Assembly: GCF_000240165.1 (NCBI RefSeq)
Contig: NC_017585.1
Location: forward strand, 682,001-746,000
Source: Streptantibioticus cattleyicolor NRRL 8057 = DSM 46488
Lineage (GTDB): Bacteria; Actinomycetota; Actinomycetes; Streptomycetales; Streptomycetaceae
Direction: 5' to 3'
DNA: 64,000 nucleotides
The notes beneath the pieces were generated by a model. It saw only the letters and a list, made by a program, of their open reading frames with translations. It did no database searches and was not told the origin of the DNA. Positions 1 to 11,829 of this stretch are shown piece after piece. The translations under genes and the position numbers were made by a program. Position 1 is the first letter of the stretch. Every line of letters begins with the position of its first letter.

Positions 1-19
1 CCGGCAGGAACTCAAAGAC

Positions 20-748
20 GTGTGCGCACCCCTCGAAAAGGACGACATCCGGCGGTTGTCGCAAGCCTTCCACCGGTTCGGCATCGTCACGGTGACGGAA
101 CTGATCGAACCCCATACCCGCAAACTCGTCCGGGCCGAGGCCGACCGCCTCCTCGACCAGTACGCGGAGCGCCGGGATCTGCGGCTGGCGACCACCGACT
201 ACACCCGCCGCTCGATGTCGGTGGTGCCCAGCGAGACCATCGCGGCCAACAGCGAGTTGGTGACCGGGCTCTACGCGCACCGGGAACTCCTCGCGCCGCT
301 GGAGGCCATCGCGGGCGAACGTCTGCACCCGTGCCCCAAGGCCGACGAAGAGTTTCTGATAACCCGCCAGGAACAGCGCGGGGACACCCACGGCTGGCAC
401 TGGGGCGACTTCAGCTTCGCGCTGATCTGGGTGCTCCAGGCCCCGCCGATCGACGTCGGCGGCCTGCTCCAGTGCGTCCCGCACACCACCTGGGACAAGG
501 CGTCCCCGCAGATCAACCGGTATCTGGTGGAGAACCCCATCGACACCTACCACTTCGAATCGGGTGACGTGTACTTTCTGCGCACCGACACCACCTTGCA
601 CCGCACGATTCCGCTGCGCGAGGACACCACCCGCATCATCCTGAACATGACGTGGGCCGGCGAACGCGATCTCAGCAGGAAACTCGCGGCCGACGACCGC
701 TGGTGGGACAACGCCGAAGTGTCGGCGGCACGGGCCATCAAGGACTGA
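20..748 (+). CDS. besD: BesD-type Fe(II)/2-oxoglutarate lysine halogenase (5' end may lie outside window)
   Basis: Predicted non-heme iron radical halogenase acting on free L-lysine to give 4-chloro-lysine. The metal site reads H127-W128-G129 with distal H194: the usual Asp/Glu of hydroxylases is replaced by Gly, which opens a site for chloride. R205 sits where 2-oxoglutarate is bound. From memory, the BesD substrate residues are R74, E120, H134, D140, N219, T221, W238 and W239; here R64, E110, H124, D130, N209, T211, W228 and W229 match at a constant offset of 10. The first visible start is GTG at 20, with a possible AGGA site at 6-9. The frame stays open to the window edge, and the offset of 10 suggests a slightly longer N-terminus starting upstream. 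It is first in a tandem set with the BesC- and BesB-like genes. The halogenase call is strong; the lysine preference is inferred from residue conservation. Confidence 0.88.
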
Positions 749-816
749 CGGCACGAGGGAACGGCGCCAATTCACCGCACAACGTCAGGCGAGCGCGACA
801 GGTGAGGGAAACCAGA

Positions 817-1590
817 ATGACCGACCTGAACACCCCGGAATCCACCTCGAAGCCGGTGTGGGAGCACTTCGACCACGTAGAGCCGGGAATTCGGCGGCGC
901 ATCGCCGTGGCCGACCCGGAAATCAAGGAATACCTGGACGGAATGCTGGCCCGGATCGCGTCCCACCGCGGCGTCGAGCACCCGTTCCTCAACGCCTACC
1001 GCACCACGGCACTCGACCCGGAGCAGGAACGCCACCTGTTCAGCGAGTGCTACTACTTCTTCCGGTACCTCCCCTTCTACATCACGGGGATGGCCGTCAA
1101 GACGCGGGACGAGATGATCCTGCGGGAGATCATCCTCAACGTGGCGGACGAGGTCGGCAGCGACCCGACGCACTCCACGCTCTTCGCCGACTTCCTCGCC
1201 CGGATCGGCATCGACAAGGAACACCTCGACGGCTACCAGCCGCTGGAGGTCACCCGGCAGCTCAACGACGGCATCCGGCACCTGTACACCGAGACGTCGA
1301 TCAACAAGGCGCTCGGCGCGCTCTACGCCGACGAGACCATGTCCTCCATCATGGTCTCGAAGATCAACGACGGCCTGCGCAACCAGGGGTACGACGACGA
1401 CCTGCGCCACTTCTGGCAGCTCCACATCGACGTCGAGGTCGGCCACAGCAACTCCGTCTTCAACGCGATCGCACCGTACGTCGGATCGAAGGCGGCCCGG
1501 GCCGAGTTCGAGGAGGGCGTCTTCGAATTCCTCGGACTGGTCGAACGCTACTGGGACGGCGTGCGGGAACTCGTGGGCATCGGCAAGTGA
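817..1590 (+). CDS. besC: BesC-type heme-oxygenase-like diiron oxidase
   Basis: Protein of 257 residues of the heme-oxygenase-like diiron oxidase (HDO, TenA/CADD-like) fold. In the known pathway BesC cleaves 4-chloro-lysine oxidatively to 4-chloro-allylglycine. The six-ligand HDO signature can be read: E112 and H119 on one helix, E173 on the next, then H203, E207 and H210 with the +4/+7 spacing of this family. The start at ATG 817 has a GAGGG site eight bases upstream; earlier starts would run into the halogenase. The gene lies 68 bases after besD and its stop overlaps the GTG start of the next gene (GTGA), indicating translational coupling. Other HDO enzymes such as UndA or CADD share the fold, but the neighbours on both sides fix the assignment. 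Confidence 0.85.
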   Translation: MTDLNTPESTSKPVWEHFDHVEPGIRRRIAVADPEIKEYLDGMLARIASHRGVEHPFLNAYRTTALDPEQERHLFSECYYFFRYLPFYITGMAVKTRDEMILREIILNVADEVGSDPTHSTLFADFLARIGIDKEHLDGYQPLEVTRQLNDGIRHLYTETSINKALGALYADETMSSIMVSKINDGLRNQGYDDDLRHFWQLHIDVEVGHSNSVFNAIAPYVGSKAARAEFEEGVFEFLGLVERYWDGVRELVGIGK

Positions 1591-3089
1591 GCGCCGGCTC
1601 CCCGGCGGAACCCCGGCCGGTCCCCGGCTCGGTGCATTCGGTCTCCGTGTCCATCCCGGACGTGCGGTCGGTCATCGGCTTCGAATCCGGCGACCCGGCG
1701 ACGCTGCGCCGCATCGCCTGGGGGTATCCGCGGTTCCGTACCCATCCGTACGTGGCCCGGGTGGCCGCCCTGGTGGCCGGGGCGGTCGGCGGGCGGGCGC
1801 AGGACCTGGTGCTCACCCGTTCCGTCCGCGCGGCCGAGGCGGCGGCGGCCTACGCCGGGCTCGCCCCGGGCGCGGTCTTCGAGGCGTCCGGGGTGCGCGG
1901 GGTGCGCGTCGCCGAGGACGATCCGGCCCTCGCCGCGGTGCGCGGCCACGTCCAGCACACCGGCGCCCACCTGACCTCCCGCGAGGCCGAGGACGTCCTG
2001 CTGGAGGCCGGGCTGATCGAGGCCCGGCAGGCCGAGGAGGCGGTCTCCGAGGAGCCCGCGGAGGCCGTCCGGTCGGCGCTCGCCACCGCGTACGGCGCCG
2101 GTGACCCGGCGGACGTGTCGCTCCACAACAGCGGCATGAACGCGGTCGCCGCGGCGGTCGCGGCGGTGACCGACCTCCAGCGCCCGGCCGGCCGCCGCCG
2201 GTGGATCCAGCTCGGCTGGATCTTCTTCGACACCATGAGCCTGCTGGACAAGCGGCTCTTCGGCACCGACCACGTCACCGTCCCCGACCCCTTCGACCTC
2301 GCGGCGCTGTCCCGGGTCGTCGCCGCGCACCCCGGTCAACTCGCCGGGATCATCGCGGAGTTGCCCAGCAACCCGAGTCTGCGCTGCCCGGACGTCCCGG
2401 CGTTGCGTGAGATCGCCGACCGGGCCGGCTGCGCGCTGGTGCTCGACGCCACCATCGCCACCCCACACAACGTCGACGTGCTCGGGTACGCCGACGTGGT
2501 CTGCGAGAGCCTGACGAAGTACGCCACCGGCTCGGCCGACGTGCTGATGGGTGCCGCTGTGGTGGGCTCCGCGTCACCGTGGGCGGCCCAGTTGCGGGAG
2601 GGGCTGCGGCGCTTCGGCGACGTGCCGTACCACCGGGACGCCGCGCGGGTGGCCGCCCGGATCCGTGACTACGGCGACCGGATGAAGCGGGTGAACGCGG
2701 GCGCCGTGGCGCTGGCCGGCTTCCTGGAGCGGCAGTCCGCGGTGCGCGCGGTGAGCTGGCCGTACGATGCCGCGTCGCAGGCCAACTACCGCAAGGTGGA
2801 ACGCCTTTCGGACGCGCCGGGCGGGCTGCTCATGGTGGATCTGCGGGTGCCCCTGGAGCGGGTCTACGACCGGCTCGCGGTGGCCAAGGGGCCCAGTTTC
2901 GGCGCGGAGTTCACCATGGCGTCGCCGCAGATCTTCATCGCCCACTTCGATCTGCTCTCCACCCCCGAGGGGCGGGCCGAGCTGCGGTCGCGCGGGCTCC
3001 ACCGGGACATGCTGCGGATCTCGGTGGGCGTGGAGGACCCGGAGCTGATCGCCGAGGTCTTCCGGGACGCCTTCGACGGCGCCGGCTGA
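1587..3089 (+). CDS. besB: BesB-type PLP-dependent enzyme (alkyne-forming gamma-elimination)
   Basis: Protein of about 500 residues related to the Cys/Met-metabolism PLP enzymes (cystathionine gamma-synthase fold). BesB converts 4-chloro-allylglycine to propargylglycine by eliminating chloride. Visible features are the LDAT segment with D288 for the pyridine nitrogen, the family-like segment ELPSNPSLRCPD (258-269), and SLTKY with K311 as the predicted Schiff-base lysine. The reading frame is open far upstream inside besC, but the sensible start is GTG 1587, whose GTGA overlaps the besC stop. That gives a 25-30 residue leader before the conserved part. A perfect hairpin follows the stop. The chain is longer than typical CGS enzymes (about 400 residues); roughly 90 extra residues lie around positions 90-180. 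Confidence 0.83.
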   Translation: MSAGSPAEPRPVPGSVHSVSVSIPDVRSVIGFESGDPATLRRIAWGYPRFRTHPYVARVAALVAGAVGGRAQDLVLTRSVRAAEAAAAYAGLAPGAVFEASGVRGVRVAEDDPALAAVRGHVQHTGAHLTSREAEDVLLEAGLIEARQAEEAVSEEPAEAVRSALATAYGAGDPADVSLHNSGMNAVAAAVAAVTDLQRPAGRRRWIQLGWIFFDTMSLLDKRLFGTDHVTVPDPFDLAALSRVVAAHPGQLAGIIAELPSNPSLRCPDVPALREIADRAGCALVLDATIATPHNVDVLGYADVVCESLTKYATGSADVLMGAAVVGSASPWAAQLREGLRRFGDVPYHRDAARVAARIRDYGDRMKRVNAGAVALAGFLERQSAVRAVSWPYDAASQANYRKVERLSDAPGGLLMVDLRVPLERVYDRLAVAKGPSFGAEFTMASPQIFIAHFDLLSTPEGRAELRSRGLHRDMLRISVGVEDPELIAEVFRDAFDGAG

Positions 3090-3101
3090 CCGGCGGCCTG
3101 A

Positions 3102-3147
3102 ACGTCTGCGCGGGCCGGGCGCACCAGCGCCCGGCCCGCGCAGACGT
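3102..3147. terminator. Perfect 21-bp hairpin between convergent genes
   Basis: Bases 3102-3122 pair without mismatch with 3127-3147 around a four-base ACCA loop. It lies between the besB stop (3089) and the stop of the leftward ATP-grasp gene (3169), so it can terminate both transcripts. Confidence 0.85.
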
Positions 3148-3168
3148 GCGTTCCCCGGCCCGCCGCGG

Positions 3169-4566
3169 TCAGGCGCTGGGGTACGGCCCGGTCAGCAACG
3201 CCTGCGCCGCCCGCGAGTAGCCGTCCGCGGCCTCGGGGGAACGGGCGAGCGCGGTCAGCTCGACGAAGCCGCAGGCGTTGAGGGCACCGAGGACGTGCAG
3301 GGCGACGCCCTCGCCGGTGTCGTGGCGGTACAACAGCCCCTCCGCGCGCAGCCGTTCGACCGCGGTACGCGGGTTGAGCTTGCCGAGGGTCTCCGGTTCC
3401 AGCAGCCGTCCGTGGGTGTAGTACACCGGGCGGCCGTCGGCGCCGCGCAGCATGCCGTCCGCCCCGACCCGCGCGCCCACCAGTGCCTCGGCGTAGCGGA
3501 CGACGTGGCTGGGGCCGACCTTGCGGAGGTTGATCTCGACGGCGAGCAGCCCGCGTTCCCCGGCGACCACGAAGTCGACGCCGAAGGCGCCGCGGTGGCC
3601 GAGTCCGGAGAGCACCTCGCCGGTCCGGCGCACCGCGTCGGTGATCTCCGGCCGCCACCGCTCGTCGGCGGGGAAGCGGCAGCCCCAGTACTGGCCGCCG
3701 CTGAGCACCTGGTCGTGGCAGGCGACCACGCGTACGGTGCCGTCCCGTTCGATGTGGCCGAGGCCGCTCGGGGAGTCGGTGATCTCCTCCAGGAACTCCT
3801 CGACGATGGCACCCTGTTCGGCCAGTTCGCGGCGGAACTCCTCGGCGGGGAGCCGGATCACCTCGGCCGATCCGACCAGGTCGCCGGTGTGCCGGAGTTT
3901 GTCGCGGTCGATCAGGACGTTGCCGATGGAGGCGGCCCAGGTGATGGCGTCGAGCTTGACCATGGCGCGCCGCGCGGCGGCCGTGCCGCAGGAGAGCCGG
4001 TGGATCGCCTCGACCACCTCCGCCTCGCTGCGCAGCACCTCGGAGGTGCCGCCGGGGACCGCGACCCCGGCGCGTAGGCAGATCTCCTTGCCGCCGCTCT
4101 TGCTCCCCCACCGGGCCACGAAGGCATGGTCGCCCTCCTCGGGGGTCGCGCCGGTCCGGCGGCCCAGTTCGTCCGTCGCGGGCGAGGCGGAGAAGTCCAC
4201 GATGGTCCCCGCGGGCCGCTCGGCGACCGCCCGGCGCAACGTCTCGACCAGTGCCTCGTCCTCCAGGACCAGCGAGTCCAGCGGGCGGGCGGCGCGGGAG
4301 GCCGGGGTGAGCAGGGTGAGCCGCCGCCGTACGTCCGCCAGGGCCGGCTCGTCGAACCGGAAGACGTCCCGCAGATGGTAGTCGAGGGTGGCGGGGTCGA
4401 CGGCCTCCGAGGTGATCACCACCAACCGGGTTCCCGGGTCACGCAGATCTCCGAGGAAACACAGACTGCGTTCGGCCGAGTACCGTAGGTAGGGAACCTC
4501 CTCCAGCATGCGGTCCGCGTAGTTGAACGCGTAGATCAGGATCTTCGTCGAACCGGGATCAGTCAT
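3169..4566 (-). CDS. ATP-grasp amino-acid/peptide ligase (pre-ATP-grasp family)
   Basis: Protein of 465 residues resembling stand-alone ATP-grasp ligases of the PGM1/peptide-ligase type, which activate a carboxylate as acyl-phosphate and join it to an amine. An N-terminal pre-ATP-grasp region begins KILIYAFNYADRM. Near residues 340-365 the segment FGVDFVV...VEINLRKVGPSH supplies the Mg-binding Asp and the E-x-N pair of the ATP-grasp core; MVKLD is the likely ATP-lysine strand. ATG 4566 is chosen because homologous-looking sequence begins there; ATG 4590 in frame is possible. It faces the bes genes and shares their terminator. By context it may cap the alkynyl or chlorinated amino acid with another amino acid, the role BesA plays with gamma-glutamate. 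Whether it is a true BesA ortholog cannot be decided here. Confidence 0.75.
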   Translation of the reverse strand: MTDPGSTKILIYAFNYADRMLEEVPYLRYSAERSLCFLGDLRDPGTRLVVITSEAVDPATLDYHLRDVFRFDEPALADVRRRLTLLTPASRAARPLDSLVLEDEALVETLRRAVAERPAGTIVDFSASPATDELGRRTGATPEEGDHAFVARWGSKSGGKEICLRAGVAVPGGTSEVLRSEAEVVEAIHRLSCGTAAARRAMVKLDAITWAASIGNVLIDRDKLRHTGDLVGSAEVIRLPAEEFRRELAEQGAIVEEFLEEITDSPSGLGHIERDGTVRVVACHDQVLSGGQYWGCRFPADERWRPEITDAVRRTGEVLSGLGHRGAFGVDFVVAGERGLLAVEINLRKVGPSHVVRYAEALVGARVGADGMLRGADGRPVYYTHGRLLEPETLGKLNPRTAVERLRAEGLLYRHDTGEGVALHVLGALNACGFVELTALARSPEAADGYSRAAQALLTGPYPSA

Positions 4567-4814
4567 ATGGAAGCGCTCTGCCTCGTTCATCCGGGTGACA
4601 ACGCCGGCACCGTACACATCGGATGCCGGACTCAAGGTTATGGGACCCGGTTTGCGAAGAACACCAGTGAACGTCGCCCGTTCGACTGGTTTTGGCCACC
4701 GCTTGCCGACCCGTTGTCCGGGGTCGTCGTACGGGGCGGCCGGTGAGGGGCGGCCTGCGGCCGAGCGGCCGTTCACCGCTCGATCCGGGCGCCGCGGATG
4801 CCGATGTCCGCCGT

Positions 4815-5708
4815 GTGAAGCTCTCCAAAGCCGTCTGGGCGCTGGTCCTCACCGTTGTCACCTGGGCTTCGGCCTTCCCCGCGATCCGGGTCGGGCTGGA
4901 CGGCTACGGGGTCGCCGGGCTCTCGCTGAGCCGGCTCACCGTGGCCTCGGTGGCGTTGGCGATCGCGGCGGGGCCGTTGGGCGTCCGCCGGCCCCGGGCC
5001 CGTGACCTGCCGATGATCGCGCTGTGCGGGGCCACCGGCATGTCCGCGTACCAGGTGCTGCTCAACTGGGGCGAGGTGCACGTCCCGGCGGGGACGGCGA
5101 GCCTGCTGATCGCCATCGCGCCGGTGTTCAGCGTGCTGTTGGCGGCGGTCTTCCTCGGCGAGCGGATGACGTGGGCGCAGATCGCCGGGAGCGCGGTGGC
5201 GATCAGCGGCGCGGCGGTGATCGCGGTGGCCGGCGGGCACGCCCGCTACACCACGTCGGCGTGGGTGGTGCTGGCCGCCGCCGTGGTGCAGGGGGTGTAC
5301 CACTTCGCCACCAAGCCGCTGCTCGCCCGCTACACCGGGCTGGAGGTCGCCTGCTACGCGATGTGGGCCGGGACGGTCTTCCTGCTGCCGCTCCTCCCCG
5401 CGATGGTGCACGGCTTCGCCACGGCGCCGGTGGCGGCCACGGCGTCCACGGTGTACCTGGGGCTGCTGCCGTCGGCGATCGGCTTCGTGTCGTGGGGGTA
5501 CGCGGTGGCCCGGCTGTCGGTGGCCTCCTCCACCGCCTCGTTGTACCTGGTGCCGCCGGTGGCGCTGGTGGTGGCCTTCGTGTGGCTCGGTGAGGTGCCG
5601 CCGCCGCTGGCGCTGGTCGGCGGCGCGCTGGGGATCGCGGGGGTGATGCTCATCAACCGCCGTACGCTCGGCCGCCGTCGGGAGGCGTCAACTCCGGGAC
5701 GTCGGTAG
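4815..5708 (+). CDS. EamA-family drug/metabolite exporter
   Basis: Integral membrane protein of 297 residues with ten predicted hydrophobic segments arranged as two EamA repeats, as in RhaT/YdcZ-like DMT exporters. It begins VKLSKAVWALVLTVVTWASA with the typical first helix and ends in a basic tail (RRREASTPGRR). GTG 4815 is chosen because the preceding in-frame sequence is arginine-rich and not membrane-like. It is divergent from the ATP-grasp ligase (249 bases between starts) and next to the bes genes, so export of, or self-protection from, the unusual amino acid or dipeptide is a reasonable inference. Its last 56 bases overlap the 3' end of the convergent methyltransferase gene. Substrate unknown from sequence. 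Confidence 0.82.
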   Translation: MKLSKAVWALVLTVVTWASAFPAIRVGLDGYGVAGLSLSRLTVASVALAIAAGPLGVRRPRARDLPMIALCGATGMSAYQVLLNWGEVHVPAGTASLLIAIAPVFSVLLAAVFLGERMTWAQIAGSAVAISGAAVIAVAGGHARYTTSAWVVLAAAVVQGVYHFATKPLLARYTGLEVACYAMWAGTVFLLPLLPAMVHGFATAPVAATASTVYLGLLPSAIGFVSWGYAVARLSVASSTASLYLVPPVALVVAFVWLGEVPPPLALVGGALGIAGVMLINRRTLGRRREASTPGRR

Positions 5709-6861
5709 GACGTCGCACCGTCAGCCGCCACAACGAGGTGACCTCCGCGGCCCGCGCGGCGTGCAGCGGGTCGTCCGGGTCGGCGGCGCGCGGATGGCGT
5801 GGCCGGGTGTCGGTCCGGCCGGCCACACGCAACCCGGCCGACGCGATGGCGTCCGTCAGTTCCTGACGGGCCCTCAGCCCGAGGCGTTCGGCCAGGTCGG
5901 ACAGGACGAGCCAGCCTTCTCCGCCGGGGAGCAGACGCGAGGCGAGGCCGTCGAGGAAGGCGTGGAGCATCGCGCCGCCGGGGTCGTAGACGCCCTGTTC
6001 GACGGTGGAGACCGGACGTCCGGGCAGCCAGGGCGGGTTGCACACCACGAGTGCGGCGCGGCCCGGCGGGTAGAGCGCCGGTCCGTGCACCTCGACGCGT
6101 CCGGCGAGGCCGAGGCGGGCGACGTTCTCCCGTGCGCAGGCCAGGGCGCGCGGCGCGGCGTCGGTGGCCACCACCCGTTCGACGCCCCGGCGGGCCAGCA
6201 CGGCGGCGAGCACCCCGGTGCCGGTGCCCAGGTCGAAGGCGGTGCGCGGGCCCGGGCCGCCGGGGGACGGCAGCGGTGCGCGGGCGACCAGGTCGACGTA
6301 CTCGCCCCGGACGGGTGCGAAGACACCGTAGTGGGGGTGGAGGCGGGCGCCGAGCGCGGGCACCTTCACACCCTTCTCGCGCCACCCCAACGCGCCGAGC
6401 ACGCCCAGCAGTTCGGTGAGCGACACCACGTACGGTCCCCGGGCCGGGCCGTACGCCTGCGCGCAGGCCCGGCGGACGTCGGGGGCCCGGCGCAGCGCCA
6501 GGGTGTGGTCGCCGGCGAGGCGGACCAACAGCATGCCCAGGACGCGGGCGCGGTGGCGGCGGGCCTGGCGGTGCCGGTGGAACGCCCGCGCCGGGTCCGC
6601 ATCCGGTTCCGGCGTGGGCGCGGCGCGGTCGATCCGCCGGGCCAGGGCGTGCAGCAGTTGACGGGCGTTGTGGTAGTCGCCGCGCCACAACAGCGCGGTG
6701 CCGTGGCGGGCGAGCCGGTGGGCGGTCGCCGCCTTCATGCGGTCGTCGGCGAGGACGACGCGTCGCGGTGCCGGGGTGCCGTTCTCCGAGTGCCAGGGCG
6801 CGTGGTGCGCGACGCCTTCCTCGGTCCAGGTGATGTGTTCGTTCCGGCGGTCGGTGGACAC
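5653..6861 (-). CDS. Class I SAM-dependent methyltransferase (HemK/RsmC-like)
   Basis: Protein of 402 residues. An N-terminal alpha-rich domain (about 1-190) precedes a Rossmann methyltransferase domain with motif I DLGTGTGVLA at 210-219 and motif IV NPPW at 275-278. The NPPW/NPPY motif is typical of enzymes that methylate amide or exocyclic nitrogens (HemK, RsmC, N6-adenine types). The start is GTG 6861 with GAGGAG six bases upstream. It converges with the EamA gene and overlaps it by 56 bases. The actual substrate (rRNA base, glutamine of a release factor, or small molecule) is not readable. I see no reason to place it in the bes cluster. Confidence 0.8.
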   Translation of the reverse strand: MSTDRRNEHITWTEEGVAHHAPWHSENGTPAPRRVVLADDRMKAATAHRLARHGTALLWRGDYHNARQLLHALARRIDRAAPTPEPDADPARAFHRHRQARRHRARVLGMLLVRLAGDHTLALRRAPDVRRACAQAYGPARGPYVVSLTELLGVLGALGWREKGVKVPALGARLHPHYGVFAPVRGEYVDLVARAPLPSPGGPGPRTAFDLGTGTGVLAAVLARRGVERVVATDAAPRALACARENVARLGLAGRVEVHGPALYPPGRAALVVCNPPWLPGRPVSTVEQGVYDPGGAMLHAFLDGLASRLLPGGEGWLVLSDLAERLGLRARQELTDAIASAGLRVAGRTDTRPRHPRAADPDDPLHAARAAEVTSLWRLTVRRPTDVPELTPPDGGRAYGG

Positions 6862-7579: not shown

Positions 7580-8482
7580 ATGGATGTCGACACCGGGTTG
7601 CTGCGCTGCTTCGTCGCCGTGGCGCGGGAGGGGAGCCTGACCGGCGCGGCGGAGCGGCTGTACGTCTCGCAGCCGGCGCTGACGAAGCGGATCAGGCAGT
7701 TGGAGGCGGGGCTGGGGACGCCGTTGTTCATCCGGTCCCGGGCCGGGATGGCGCTGACCGAGGCGGGGCGGGCGCTGGCGGAGCGCGCGCCGGGGCTGCT
7801 GGACGAGTGGGAGCGGACGCTGCGGGAGACCCGGCAGGTGGCGGCGCGTTCGGCGCGGGTGCTGCGGGTGGGTTTCCTGGCCAGCGCGGCCAACGAGGCC
7901 ACGTCTCGGATCGTGGCGGCGTTCGCCCGCCGCAGACCGGGGTGGCGGGCCGAGATGCGGCAGGCGGCCTGGTCGGACCCGTCCGCCGGGCTCGCCGCCG
8001 GTGACGTCGATGTCGCCCTGCTGCGGCTGCCGTTCCCCGGCGAGGACGCGCTGCGGGTGGAGACGCTCTTCACCGAGGCCCGGTGCGTCGCGCTGCCCGC
8101 GTCGCACCGCCTGGCCGGCCGTGCGGTGATCCCCTTCCGTGAGCTGTGGGACGAGCCGTTCGTGGCCGCCCCGGAGGAGACCGGCCGCTGGCGCGGCTAC
8201 TGGCTGGCCGCCGACGAACGCGACGGCCGCCCCGTCACCGTCGGCGCCGTCACCGACCAGCCCGACGAATGGCTCAGCGCCATCGCCAACGGATACGGCA
8301 TCGCCCTCGCCCCCGAGTCCGCCGCCCGCTTCTACGCCCGCCCCGGCATCGTCTACCGCCCGGTCACCGGCGTCACCCCCAGCCGGGTCGGCGTGGCCTG
8401 GTCCCCGGCGGACGACACCAACCCGGTGGTGCGCGATTTCGTCGGCTGCTGCCGCCGGTACGGGGGCGGTGGCGTAGCTTAG
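7580..8482 (+). CDS. LysR-family transcriptional regulator
   Basis: Protein of 300 residues with an N-terminal winged helix-turn-helix (about residues 5-62: LLRCFVAVAREGSLTGAAERLYVSQPALTKRIRQLE) and a C-terminal periplasmic-binding-like effector domain (about 90-295). Length and layout are standard for LysR. The start is ATG 7580. It is divergent from the DoxX-like gene, the classical LysR arrangement, so it likely binds the 122-base gap and controls that gene and itself. Effector unknown. Confidence 0.92.
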   Translation: MDVDTGLLRCFVAVAREGSLTGAAERLYVSQPALTKRIRQLEAGLGTPLFIRSRAGMALTEAGRALAERAPGLLDEWERTLRETRQVAARSARVLRVGFLASAANEATSRIVAAFARRRPGWRAEMRQAAWSDPSAGLAAGDVDVALLRLPFPGEDALRVETLFTEARCVALPASHRLAGRAVIPFRELWDEPFVAAPEETGRWRGYWLAADERDGRPVTVGAVTDQPDEWLSAIANGYGIALAPESAARFYARPGIVYRPVTGVTPSRVGVAWSPADDTNPVVRDFVGCCRRYGGGGVA

Positions 8483-8811: not shown

Positions 8812-8910
8812 CCGGGGGCCGGGCCGTGGGTGGCCGGTTCTCCGCGTGGGCGGGCGGAGCGGGGTGCGGGTCGGTCGAACGGCCTCCCAACTTCTGCTTA
8901 TGATCCGGGA

Positions 8911-9816
8911 ATGCTGGACTCACGGCACCTTGCGACCTTCCACGAAGTGGTCCGCGTCGGTTCGTACTCGGCGGCGGCGCGGTCCCTCGGGTACACCCAG
9001 CCGGCGATCACCCAGCAGATGAAGGCGCTCGAACGGGCCGTCGGCGTACCGCTGTTCACCCGGGTCGGCCGGGGGCTGCGGCTGACCGAGGCGGGGGAGG
9101 CGCTCTCCCGGCACGCGGAGGTGATCCTGGGCGATCTGGCGGCGGCGCAGAAGCAGCTCGGCGCGCTGGCGGGCCTGCGTTCCGGACGGGTCCGGGTGTG
9201 CGCGTTCCCCAGCGCCAACGCCACCTTGGTGCCGGAGGCGATCGCCCGGCTGCTGGTGGACCATCCGGGGATCCGGGTGGAGCTGCTGGAGGACGAGCCG
9301 CCGGAGTCGGTGCACCGGCTGCTGCGCGGCGACTGCGACATCGCCCTGGGGTTCGGCTACCCGGGGCTGCGCACCGAGGTGCCCGACGAGGTGGTCGAGG
9401 TGCCGTTGATGGAGGATCTGCTCACCGTGCTGCTGCCGGTGGGCCATCCGCTGGCCCGGCGCCACGCGGTGCCGTTGCGCGAACTGGCCGGTGAGCGCTG
9501 GATCGCCGGGTGCCCGCGCTGCCGGGCCAACTTCCTGCACGTGTGCGCCGAGGAGAACTTCACCCCCGACATCGTCTTCACCACCGACGACAACCTCGCG
9601 GTACAGTCCCTGGTGACCGTCGGCGCGGGTATTGCGCTGATGCCCGCGCTCGTGCTCTCCTTCCTCTCCCACGCCAAGGTCACCGGGCGCGCGGTGGAGC
9701 CGCACGTCCGGCGCCGGGTCTGCGCCCAGGTGCTCCGCGAGCACCTGCGGATCCCGGCGACCGCGCTGGTGCTCGACGCCCTCAAGGAGGTCGCGGCGGC
9801 CCGGGACGGCTGCTGA
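8911..9816 (+). CDS. LysR-family transcriptional regulator
   Basis: Protein of 301 residues with a typical LysR winged HTH (residues 3-60, HLATFHEVVRVGSYSAAARSLGYTQPAITQQMKALE) and an effector domain from about 90. The segment CPRCRANFLHVC carries three cysteines in the effector domain, unusual for the family and possibly a redox or ligand site. The start at ATG 8911 has only a weak GGGA next to it, so translation may start on a short or leaderless transcript. It is 91 bases upstream of the cysteine-dioxygenase-like gene in the same direction, so it probably controls this set. Confidence 0.9.
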   Translation: MLDSRHLATFHEVVRVGSYSAAARSLGYTQPAITQQMKALERAVGVPLFTRVGRGLRLTEAGEALSRHAEVILGDLAAAQKQLGALAGLRSGRVRVCAFPSANATLVPEAIARLLVDHPGIRVELLEDEPPESVHRLLRGDCDIALGFGYPGLRTEVPDEVVEVPLMEDLLTVLLPVGHPLARRHAVPLRELAGERWIAGCPRCRANFLHVCAEENFTPDIVFTTDDNLAVQSLVTVGAGIALMPALVLSFLSHAKVTGRAVEPHVRRRVCAQVLREHLRIPATALVLDALKEVAAARDGC

Positions 9817-9907: not shown

Positions 9908-10477
9908 ATGACTACCTCCACCGCGTCCGGCGCGGTCGCCGCGAGGACCACCGAACGGATCGAGGCGCTGGTCGCCGGGGTCCGCGAGGTCGTCCGGCGC
10001 GGTCTGCCGCCGGAGTCCACCGCCCACCTGGTCGCGGAACTGCTCGCTCCGCTGCTCGGCCGGGCCGGGCTGCTCACCGCCGAACAGTGCGAGGGCGACC
10101 CGGAACGCTACCGGCAGCACGTGCTGCACAGCGAACCCGACGGCAGCTTCTCGCTGGTCGCGCTGGTGTGGCTGCCGGGGCAGAGCACCTCGGTGCACGA
10201 CCACGTCTCGTGGTGCGTCACCGGGGTCCACGAGGGCCAGGAGCACGAGCGGCGCTACCGGCTGCTGACCGACGGGCGCACCTCGTGGCTGGCCCGGGCC
10301 GGTGACGTGGTCAACGGGGTCGGCGAGGTGGCCGCGTTCGCCCCGCCCGGCGACATCCACCGGGTACGCAACGGCGGCCCCGGCAAGGCGATCTCGCTGC
10401 ACGTCTACGGCGCCGACGTGGCCCGGCTGGGCAGCAGCATCCGCCGGGTCTACCAGGTGCCGGAGGGTGAACGGTGA
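9908..10477 (+). CDS. Cysteine dioxygenase-type cupin
   Basis: Protein of 189 residues of the cysteine/3-mercaptopropionate dioxygenase family, which oxidises a thiol to a sulfinate with a mononuclear iron. The three-His iron site is readable: H97 and H99 in SVHDHVSWCV and H151 in GDIHRV. The segment WCVTGVHEG follows the first pair as in bacterial CDO homologs. The C-terminus overlaps the start of the FAD protein (GTGA), so the two are co-translated. The choice between cysteine and 3-mercaptopropionate as substrate cannot be made from what I can see. Linked to sulfur-compound catabolism by family and by the LysR gene upstream. Confidence 0.85.
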   Translation: MTTSTASGAVAARTTERIEALVAGVREVVRRGLPPESTAHLVAELLAPLLGRAGLLTAEQCEGDPERYRQHVLHSEPDGSFSLVALVWLPGQSTSVHDHVSWCVTGVHEGQEHERRYRLLTDGRTSWLARAGDVVNGVGEVAAFAPPGDIHRVRNGGPGKAISLHVYGADVARLGSSIRRVYQVPEGER

Positions 10478-11829
10478 CGCGGCCGCGGGAGATCGCCGTG
10501 GTGGGCGCGGGGGCGGCCGGGACGCTGACCGCGACCCGGTTGCTGCACCACGCGGCGCTGGAGGGGCACGACGACATCCGCGTCACCCTGATCGGCCCCG
10601 GCGCCGAGGGCCGCGGGCTGGCCTTCGGCACCCCGGCCGAGCACCATCTGCTCAACGTCCCGGCGCAGGGCATGAGCGCGCACCGGGACGACCCCGGCCA
10701 CTTCGTGCGCTGGCTCGACGGCCGGGCCGGCCCGACCGACTTCGTACCGCGCGGGCTGTACGGGCGGTATCTCGGCGAGACGCTGGAGGCGGCGCGCGGC
10801 CTGCCCGGCGCGCCCGGCCTGCTGCGGGTTCCCGACCGGGTGACCGGCCTGGCGTACCGGCCGGGCGGCGCGGGGGCCCCGGTGACGCTGCGGCTGGACT
10901 CGGGGCGACGGATCGGCGCGGACGCCGTGGTGCTCGCGCTCGGGAACTTCGCGCCGGACCGCTCGTGGGCGCCGCCGCGGCTGCGGGACTGGCCCGGGTT
11001 CGTGGCCGACCCGTGGGCGCCGGGCGCGCTGGGCCGGGTGCCGGACGACGGTGACGTGCTGCTGGTCGGCACCGGACTGACCATGGTGGACGTGGCGTTG
11101 ACGGTGCGCGGGCCCGGGCGGGTGGTGCACGCCGTCTCCCGCCACGGACTCGTTCCGCAGCCGCACGCCGACCACCCGGTGGCGCCGCACGCGGCACCGA
11201 GGCTGGACGCCGGGGCGGGGCTGACCGGGCTGCGCCGGGCGGTGCTGCGGCACGTGGCCGGGTGCCGTCGGGCGCACGGCGACTGGCGGTGCGGGGTGGA
11301 CAGCCTGCGGCCGGTCACCTCGGCGTTGTGGCAGCAGTTGTCCGAGGCCGACCGGGCCCGGTTCCTCCGGGAGGACCTGCGGTTGTGGGAGACCCACCGG
11401 CACCGTGTGCCGCCGGTGAGCGCCCGGGCGCTGGCCGCCGCGGTGGACGCCGGGCTGGTCTCGGTGGGCGAGGGCACGATCACCGGGGCCGAGGTCGCCG
11501 GTGACGCGATCGAGGTGGCGCTGGCGGACGGCCGGCGGCTGCGGGTGCGTTCGGTGGTCAACTGCACCGGTGCGCAGGGCGACTTGACCCGGGTCGACGA
11601 TCCGCTGGTGGTCGATCTGCTCGCCTCCGGGCTGGCCACCCCGGCGCCGCTCGGCGGCCTGGTGACCTCTCCCGGCGGCCGGGTGCACCCGGTGGCCCCG
11701 TTGTGGACCCTGGGCTCGCTGCGCCGTGGCGCCCTGCTGGAGACCACGGCGATCCCGGAGATCCGGTGCCAGGCCGACGACCTGGCGGGGTCGCTGCTGC
11801 GGGAGCGGGCGGCGGTGCCGGTGGCGTGA
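10474..11829 (+). CDS. FAD/NAD(P)-binding oxidoreductase
   Basis: Protein of 451 residues starting with a Rossmann dinucleotide motif (IAVVGAGAAGTLTATRLL, residues 8-25). It resembles the FAD-NAD(P)-binding family seen next to sulfur and amine catabolic genes; LAFGTPAEHHLLNVPAQGMSAH is a family hallmark. A second nucleotide-binding stretch DVLLVGTGLTMVDVAL lies near 190. It starts at GTG 10474, overlapping the dioxygenase stop by four bases. A clear hairpin terminator follows. Probable electron-transfer or monooxygenase partner of the thiol dioxygenase; the reaction is not known. Confidence 0.82.
   Translation: MTRPREIAVVGAGAAGTLTATRLLHHAALEGHDDIRVTLIGPGAEGRGLAFGTPAEHHLLNVPAQGMSAHRDDPGHFVRWLDGRAGPTDFVPRGLYGRYLGETLEAARGLPGAPGLLRVPDRVTGLAYRPGGAGAPVTLRLDSGRRIGADAVVLALGNFAPDRSWAPPRLRDWPGFVADPWAPGALGRVPDDGDVLLVGTGLTMVDVALTVRGPGRVVHAVSRHGLVPQPHADHPVAPHAAPRLDAGAGLTGLRRAVLRHVAGCRRAHGDWRCGVDSLRPVTSALWQQLSEADRARFLREDLRLWETHRHRVPPVSARALAAAVDAGLVSVGEGTITGAEVAGDAIEVALADGRRLRVRSVVNCTGAQGDLTRVDDPLVVDLLASGLATPAPLGGLVTSPGGRVHPVAPLWTLGSLRRGALLETTAIPEIRCQADDLAGSLLRERAAVPVA

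Follow-up and report, generated by a model that had tools for sequence, protein, structure and literature searches.

A terminal-alkyne amino acid locus of Streptantibioticus cattleyicolor and its identification with the published bes cluster of Streptomyces cattleya

The DNA analysed here, a stretch of 64,000 nucleotides referred to as the window (C1:682001-746000), begins with genes for a halogenase, a diiron enzyme and a PLP enzyme of the kind that convert lysine to a terminal-alkyne amino acid. The question raised by this locus is whether it represents a new or divergent bes-type cluster with a product of its own, as the original prediction proposed, or a bes cluster that has already been described. 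The features to which the text refers are as follows.

1..748, plus strand: besD, L-lysine 4-chlorinase (Fe(II)/2OG halogenase), truncated at its 5' end by the start of the window, read at 2-748 (6NIE, NF042920, Pfam HalD, HWG and LHR motifs)
817..1590, plus strand: besC, 4-chloro-allylglycine synthase (HDO diiron enzyme) (7TWA, NF042919)
1587..3089, plus strand: besB, PLP-dependent L-propargylglycine synthase (CGS fold), GTG start (NF042918, 9AUA/9AUB)
3169..4566, minus strand: besA, L-propargylglycine--L-glutamate ligase (ATP-grasp) (8YI6, NF042917)
4815..5708, plus strand: EamA-family exporter (Pfam EamA; synteny in two related clusters)
L009:8772-9578, minus strand, in the left flank of the window: candidate besE, 2OG oxygenase of 268 aa, divergent from besD (weak Pfam WelO5 and 2OG-FeII_Oxy)
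5653-6861: methyltransferase adjoining the exporter

Identity of the stretch and layout of the genes

The genome consists of two replicons with 8,095,515 bases in total, and the window lies on the replicon C1 of 1,812,548 bases. A megablast search with bases 1-6000 matched one plasmid record, NC_016113.1 (pSCAT), with 100% identity from end to end of the query, and a base-by-base walk found a single disagreement between window 1-49956 and this megaplasmid, a 33-bp difference at window 1621. The record pSCAT belongs to Streptantibioticus cattleyicolor (formerly Streptomyces cattleya) NRRL 8057 = DSM 46488. The near-complete identity to pSCAT, together with the match of BesD to the solved lysine halogenase 6NIE, identifies the locus as the original S. 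cattleya bes cluster and rules out a divergent or new bes-type cluster; the locus had been predicted merely to resemble that of S. cattleya, and it is S. cattleya's own. Organism, replicon and genes are the same as in the cluster of Marchand et al. 2019 (Nature 567:420), whereas besB in the pSCAT record carries 33 bp (11 codons) that are missing from besB in the window. We regard it as practically certain that window 1-5708 is this published megaplasmid cluster, making beta-ethynylserine via BesD, BesC, BesB, BesA and a candidate BesE, with the EamA protein as probable exporter. The bes system at window 1-5708 is thus already known, as a characterised pathway in its original host. One published account (PMC10187165) names the source of BesD as Streptomyces lavenduligriseus, a different strain from NRRL 8057 = DSM 46488.

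The enzyme classes expected at 1-5708, an HDO diiron enzyme, a CGS-fold PLP enzyme, an ATP-grasp ligase and an exporter beside the halogenase, were all found (BesC, BesB, BesA and EamA). The genes besD, besC and besB had been described as tandem and translationally coupled, which holds for besC and besB, with an overlap of 4 nt (GTGA), but not for besD and besC, which are separated by 68 nt (748 versus 817); the layout of translational coupling is therefore confined to the besC-besB pair. The besA gene lies on the opposite strand and is convergent with besDCB. Inspection of the genome to the left of base 1 located the missing 5' end of besD and, beyond it, the divergent 2OG oxygenase gene at L009:8772-9578. 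The Streptomyces relatives have kept a GTG at the position of L009:9990, and in two of them an in-frame stop lies upstream, so this GTG, 11 nt before the part of the gene that lies in the window, is most likely the start of besD. Farther left of candidate besE are genes for an SDR and an FAD oxidoreductase, which the related clusters do not share, apart from a weak SDR match in L018.

To the right, 5708 is the most likely end of the cluster, since the adjoining methyltransferase gene (5653-6861), sought in nine related loci, was in none of them. Farther on in the window there are two LysR-family regulators close together (7580-8482 and 8830-9816); after them come genes for a protein of the cysteine-dioxygenase type (9908-10477) and for an FAD/NAD(P)-binding oxidoreductase (10474-11829), which overlap by 4 nt.

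The enzymes and their products

The assignment to the Bes pathway proved correct enzyme by enzyme, both by matches to solved structures (6NIE, 7TWA, 9AUA/9AUB and 8YI6) and by the NCBIfam equivalog models that define the BesD, BesC, BesB and BesA calls, all four proteins scoring above the cut-off. BesD aligns with PDB 6NIE ("BesD, lysine halogenase") over 252 aa without a mismatch except at the start codon (V/M), with 576 bits; it scores 475 bits with NF042920 (cut-off 450) and matches Pfam HalD. The predicted HXG iron site of a halogenase is present as HWG, with the distal His in LHR. The related proteins of PDB 7U6I, 7U6H, 9OER and 7JSD, which belong to the BesD family of free-amino-acid halogenases and lysine hydroxylases, are homologous to BesD and likewise act on free amino acids, but they score 190-269 bits against the BesD query, and judging from their names and PMC8407142 they use other substrates or carry out hydroxylation and not chlorination. 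BesC aligns end to end with the 4-chloro-allylglycine synthase 7TWA (residues 1-257, 588 bits) and scores 554 bits with NF042919 (cut-off 500); among 294 sampled genomes of the order, four BesC matches exceeded the cut-off, the one in the window's own genome included. BesA aligns over its full length, residues 1-465, with the L-propargylglycine--L-glutamate ligase 8YI6 (1027 bits; 882 bits with NF042917, cut-off 750).

BesB has the Cys/Met PLP domain with the lysine motif SLTKY, and scores 971 bits with NF042918 (cut-off 800). Its closest solved chains are BesB 9AUA/9AUB (687 bits, 488 residues aligned), which probably come from an orthologue in another species. CndF and the methionine gamma-lyase-type PLP enzymes share with BesB the CGS-fold, PLP-dependent gamma-elimination and replacement, but are distant from it (at most 123 bits, versus 687 for 9AUA).

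The pathway to beta-ethynylserine in S. cattleya is where BesD was discovered (PMC8407142). This enzyme chlorinates L-lysine at C4; BesC then breaks the chlorinated lysine down to chloro-allylglycine, whose chlorine serves BesB as the leaving group when the alkyne is made (PMC10187165); the co-products of BesC are ammonia and formaldehyde (PMC13108848). Beta-ethynylserine is named in PMC10250548 as a threonine antimetabolite from S. cattleya (Sanada 1986, cited therein). In the cluster at hand, free L-lysine is chlorinated at C4 by BesD, and 4-chloro-lysine is converted by BesC to 4-chloro-allylglycine, ammonia and formaldehyde. PLP-dependent loss of chlorine in BesB then gives L-propargylglycine, which BesA would join to L-glutamate. 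The 2OG oxygenase encoded just outside the window on the left, the presumed BesE, would hydroxylate this dipeptide en route to beta-ethynylserine, and the EamA protein probably exports the product, a role proposed in this analysis.

The pathway of Marchand et al. 2019 reportedly passes through a glutamyl dipeptide made by BesA and hydroxylated by BesE, and the BesA model's name, L-propargylglycine--L-glutamate ligase, speaks for such an intermediate. The candidate BesE at L009:8772-9578 gave weak Pfam matches (WelO5 and 2OG-FeII_Oxy), and among the NCBIfam models and solved structures there was no match to a named BesE. We take it to be the BesE beta-hydroxylase from its position, its family and the published cluster. 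The described products of the bes pathway are propargylglycine and beta-ethynylserine, and the idea of a distinct product, which gene content and order had been suggested to define, is unnecessary; an order shared with two other Streptomyces clusters does not define one. A new dipeptide had also been suggested; for the dipeptide step of BesA, an equivalog model at NCBI and a solved structure are already available.

A 33-bp hairpin missing from besB

The 33 extra bases in pSCAT at window 1621 form a perfect inverted repeat, in which GGCCGGCCCGCGG and CCGCGGGCCGGCC are the arms of 13 bp on either side of a 7-nt loop. They encode eleven additional BesB residues, where the protein of the window goes from EPRP straight to VPGS. 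The four relatives examined have a stretch closely similar to that of pSCAT (AGPRHIPAGRPVPGS), e.g. GLRHIAAGRPVPGS in L015. Strong stems are easily lost during sequencing or assembly. Since the stem is strong and the encoded residues are largely conserved in relatives, the hairpin is probably absent from besB in the window by assembly dropout, although the sequenced culture may also have truly lost the segment. No second BesB above the cut-off was found genome-wide, the besB of the window being the sole copy at that level, and a search of the rest of the genome for the 13-bp arms as a possible mobile repeat gave no match to the pattern used. A dropout of this kind in the genome record could mislead cloning of besB from that record.

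Related clusters and the role of the exporter

A BesB scan of a genome collection (84,980 species) gave nine related loci, six in Streptomyces and three in Frankia. The order besD-besC-besB is kept in all nine, while besA lies downstream of besDCB in the six Streptomyces loci and upstream in those of Frankia. Two of the nine, in S. triculaminicus (L012) and S. griseocarneus (L014), carry candidate besE together with the EamA exporter, arranged as here; within the DNA examined, both were undetected in the other seven (L011, L013 and L015-L019). In Frankia (L016, L017 and L018), besDCB is accompanied by a besA moved upstream, with besE and the exporter undetected, and L016 has two genes of the LOG-type "lysine decarboxylase" fold directly downstream of besB.

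The proteins in L012 and L014 are 53-55% identical to candidate BesE, and their EamA exporters are 82-83% identical to that of the window, in the same place and orientation. This co-occurrence with besE suggests that the exporter may carry the hydroxylated product. Because it was found only with besE among the clusters examined, the EamA protein (4815-5708) is predicted, with about even chances, to be a dedicated exporter or self-protection factor for a hydroxylated alkyne product, either beta-ethynylserine or the glutamyl dipeptide. EamA proteins are common, and the seven related clusters with no EamA gene in the DNA examined would fit an unrelated neighbour outside the bes cluster; however, the high identity and the conserved place and orientation in both besE-carrying relatives, where the next gene, for the methyltransferase, is not conserved, make such a neighbour unlikely. 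That the locus is a bes-type cluster of another strain, making a distinct alkynyl or chlorinated peptide, is scarcely credible: bes relatives flanked by other genes occur in other Streptomyces and in Frankia, but the window belongs to the megaplasmid of S. cattleya, and the order besE-besDCB-besA-exporter is common to S. triculaminicus and S. griseocarneus.

As a system the cluster of S. cattleya offers nothing new, and a genuine, characterised pathway was here recognised from sequence alone. What is new are small points, namely the 33-bp hairpin gap in besB, probably an assembly dropout, and the co-occurrence of besE with the EamA exporter. If the proposed role of the exporter is true, the clusters without besE in other Streptomyces and in Frankia would stop at propargylglycine or its dipeptide.
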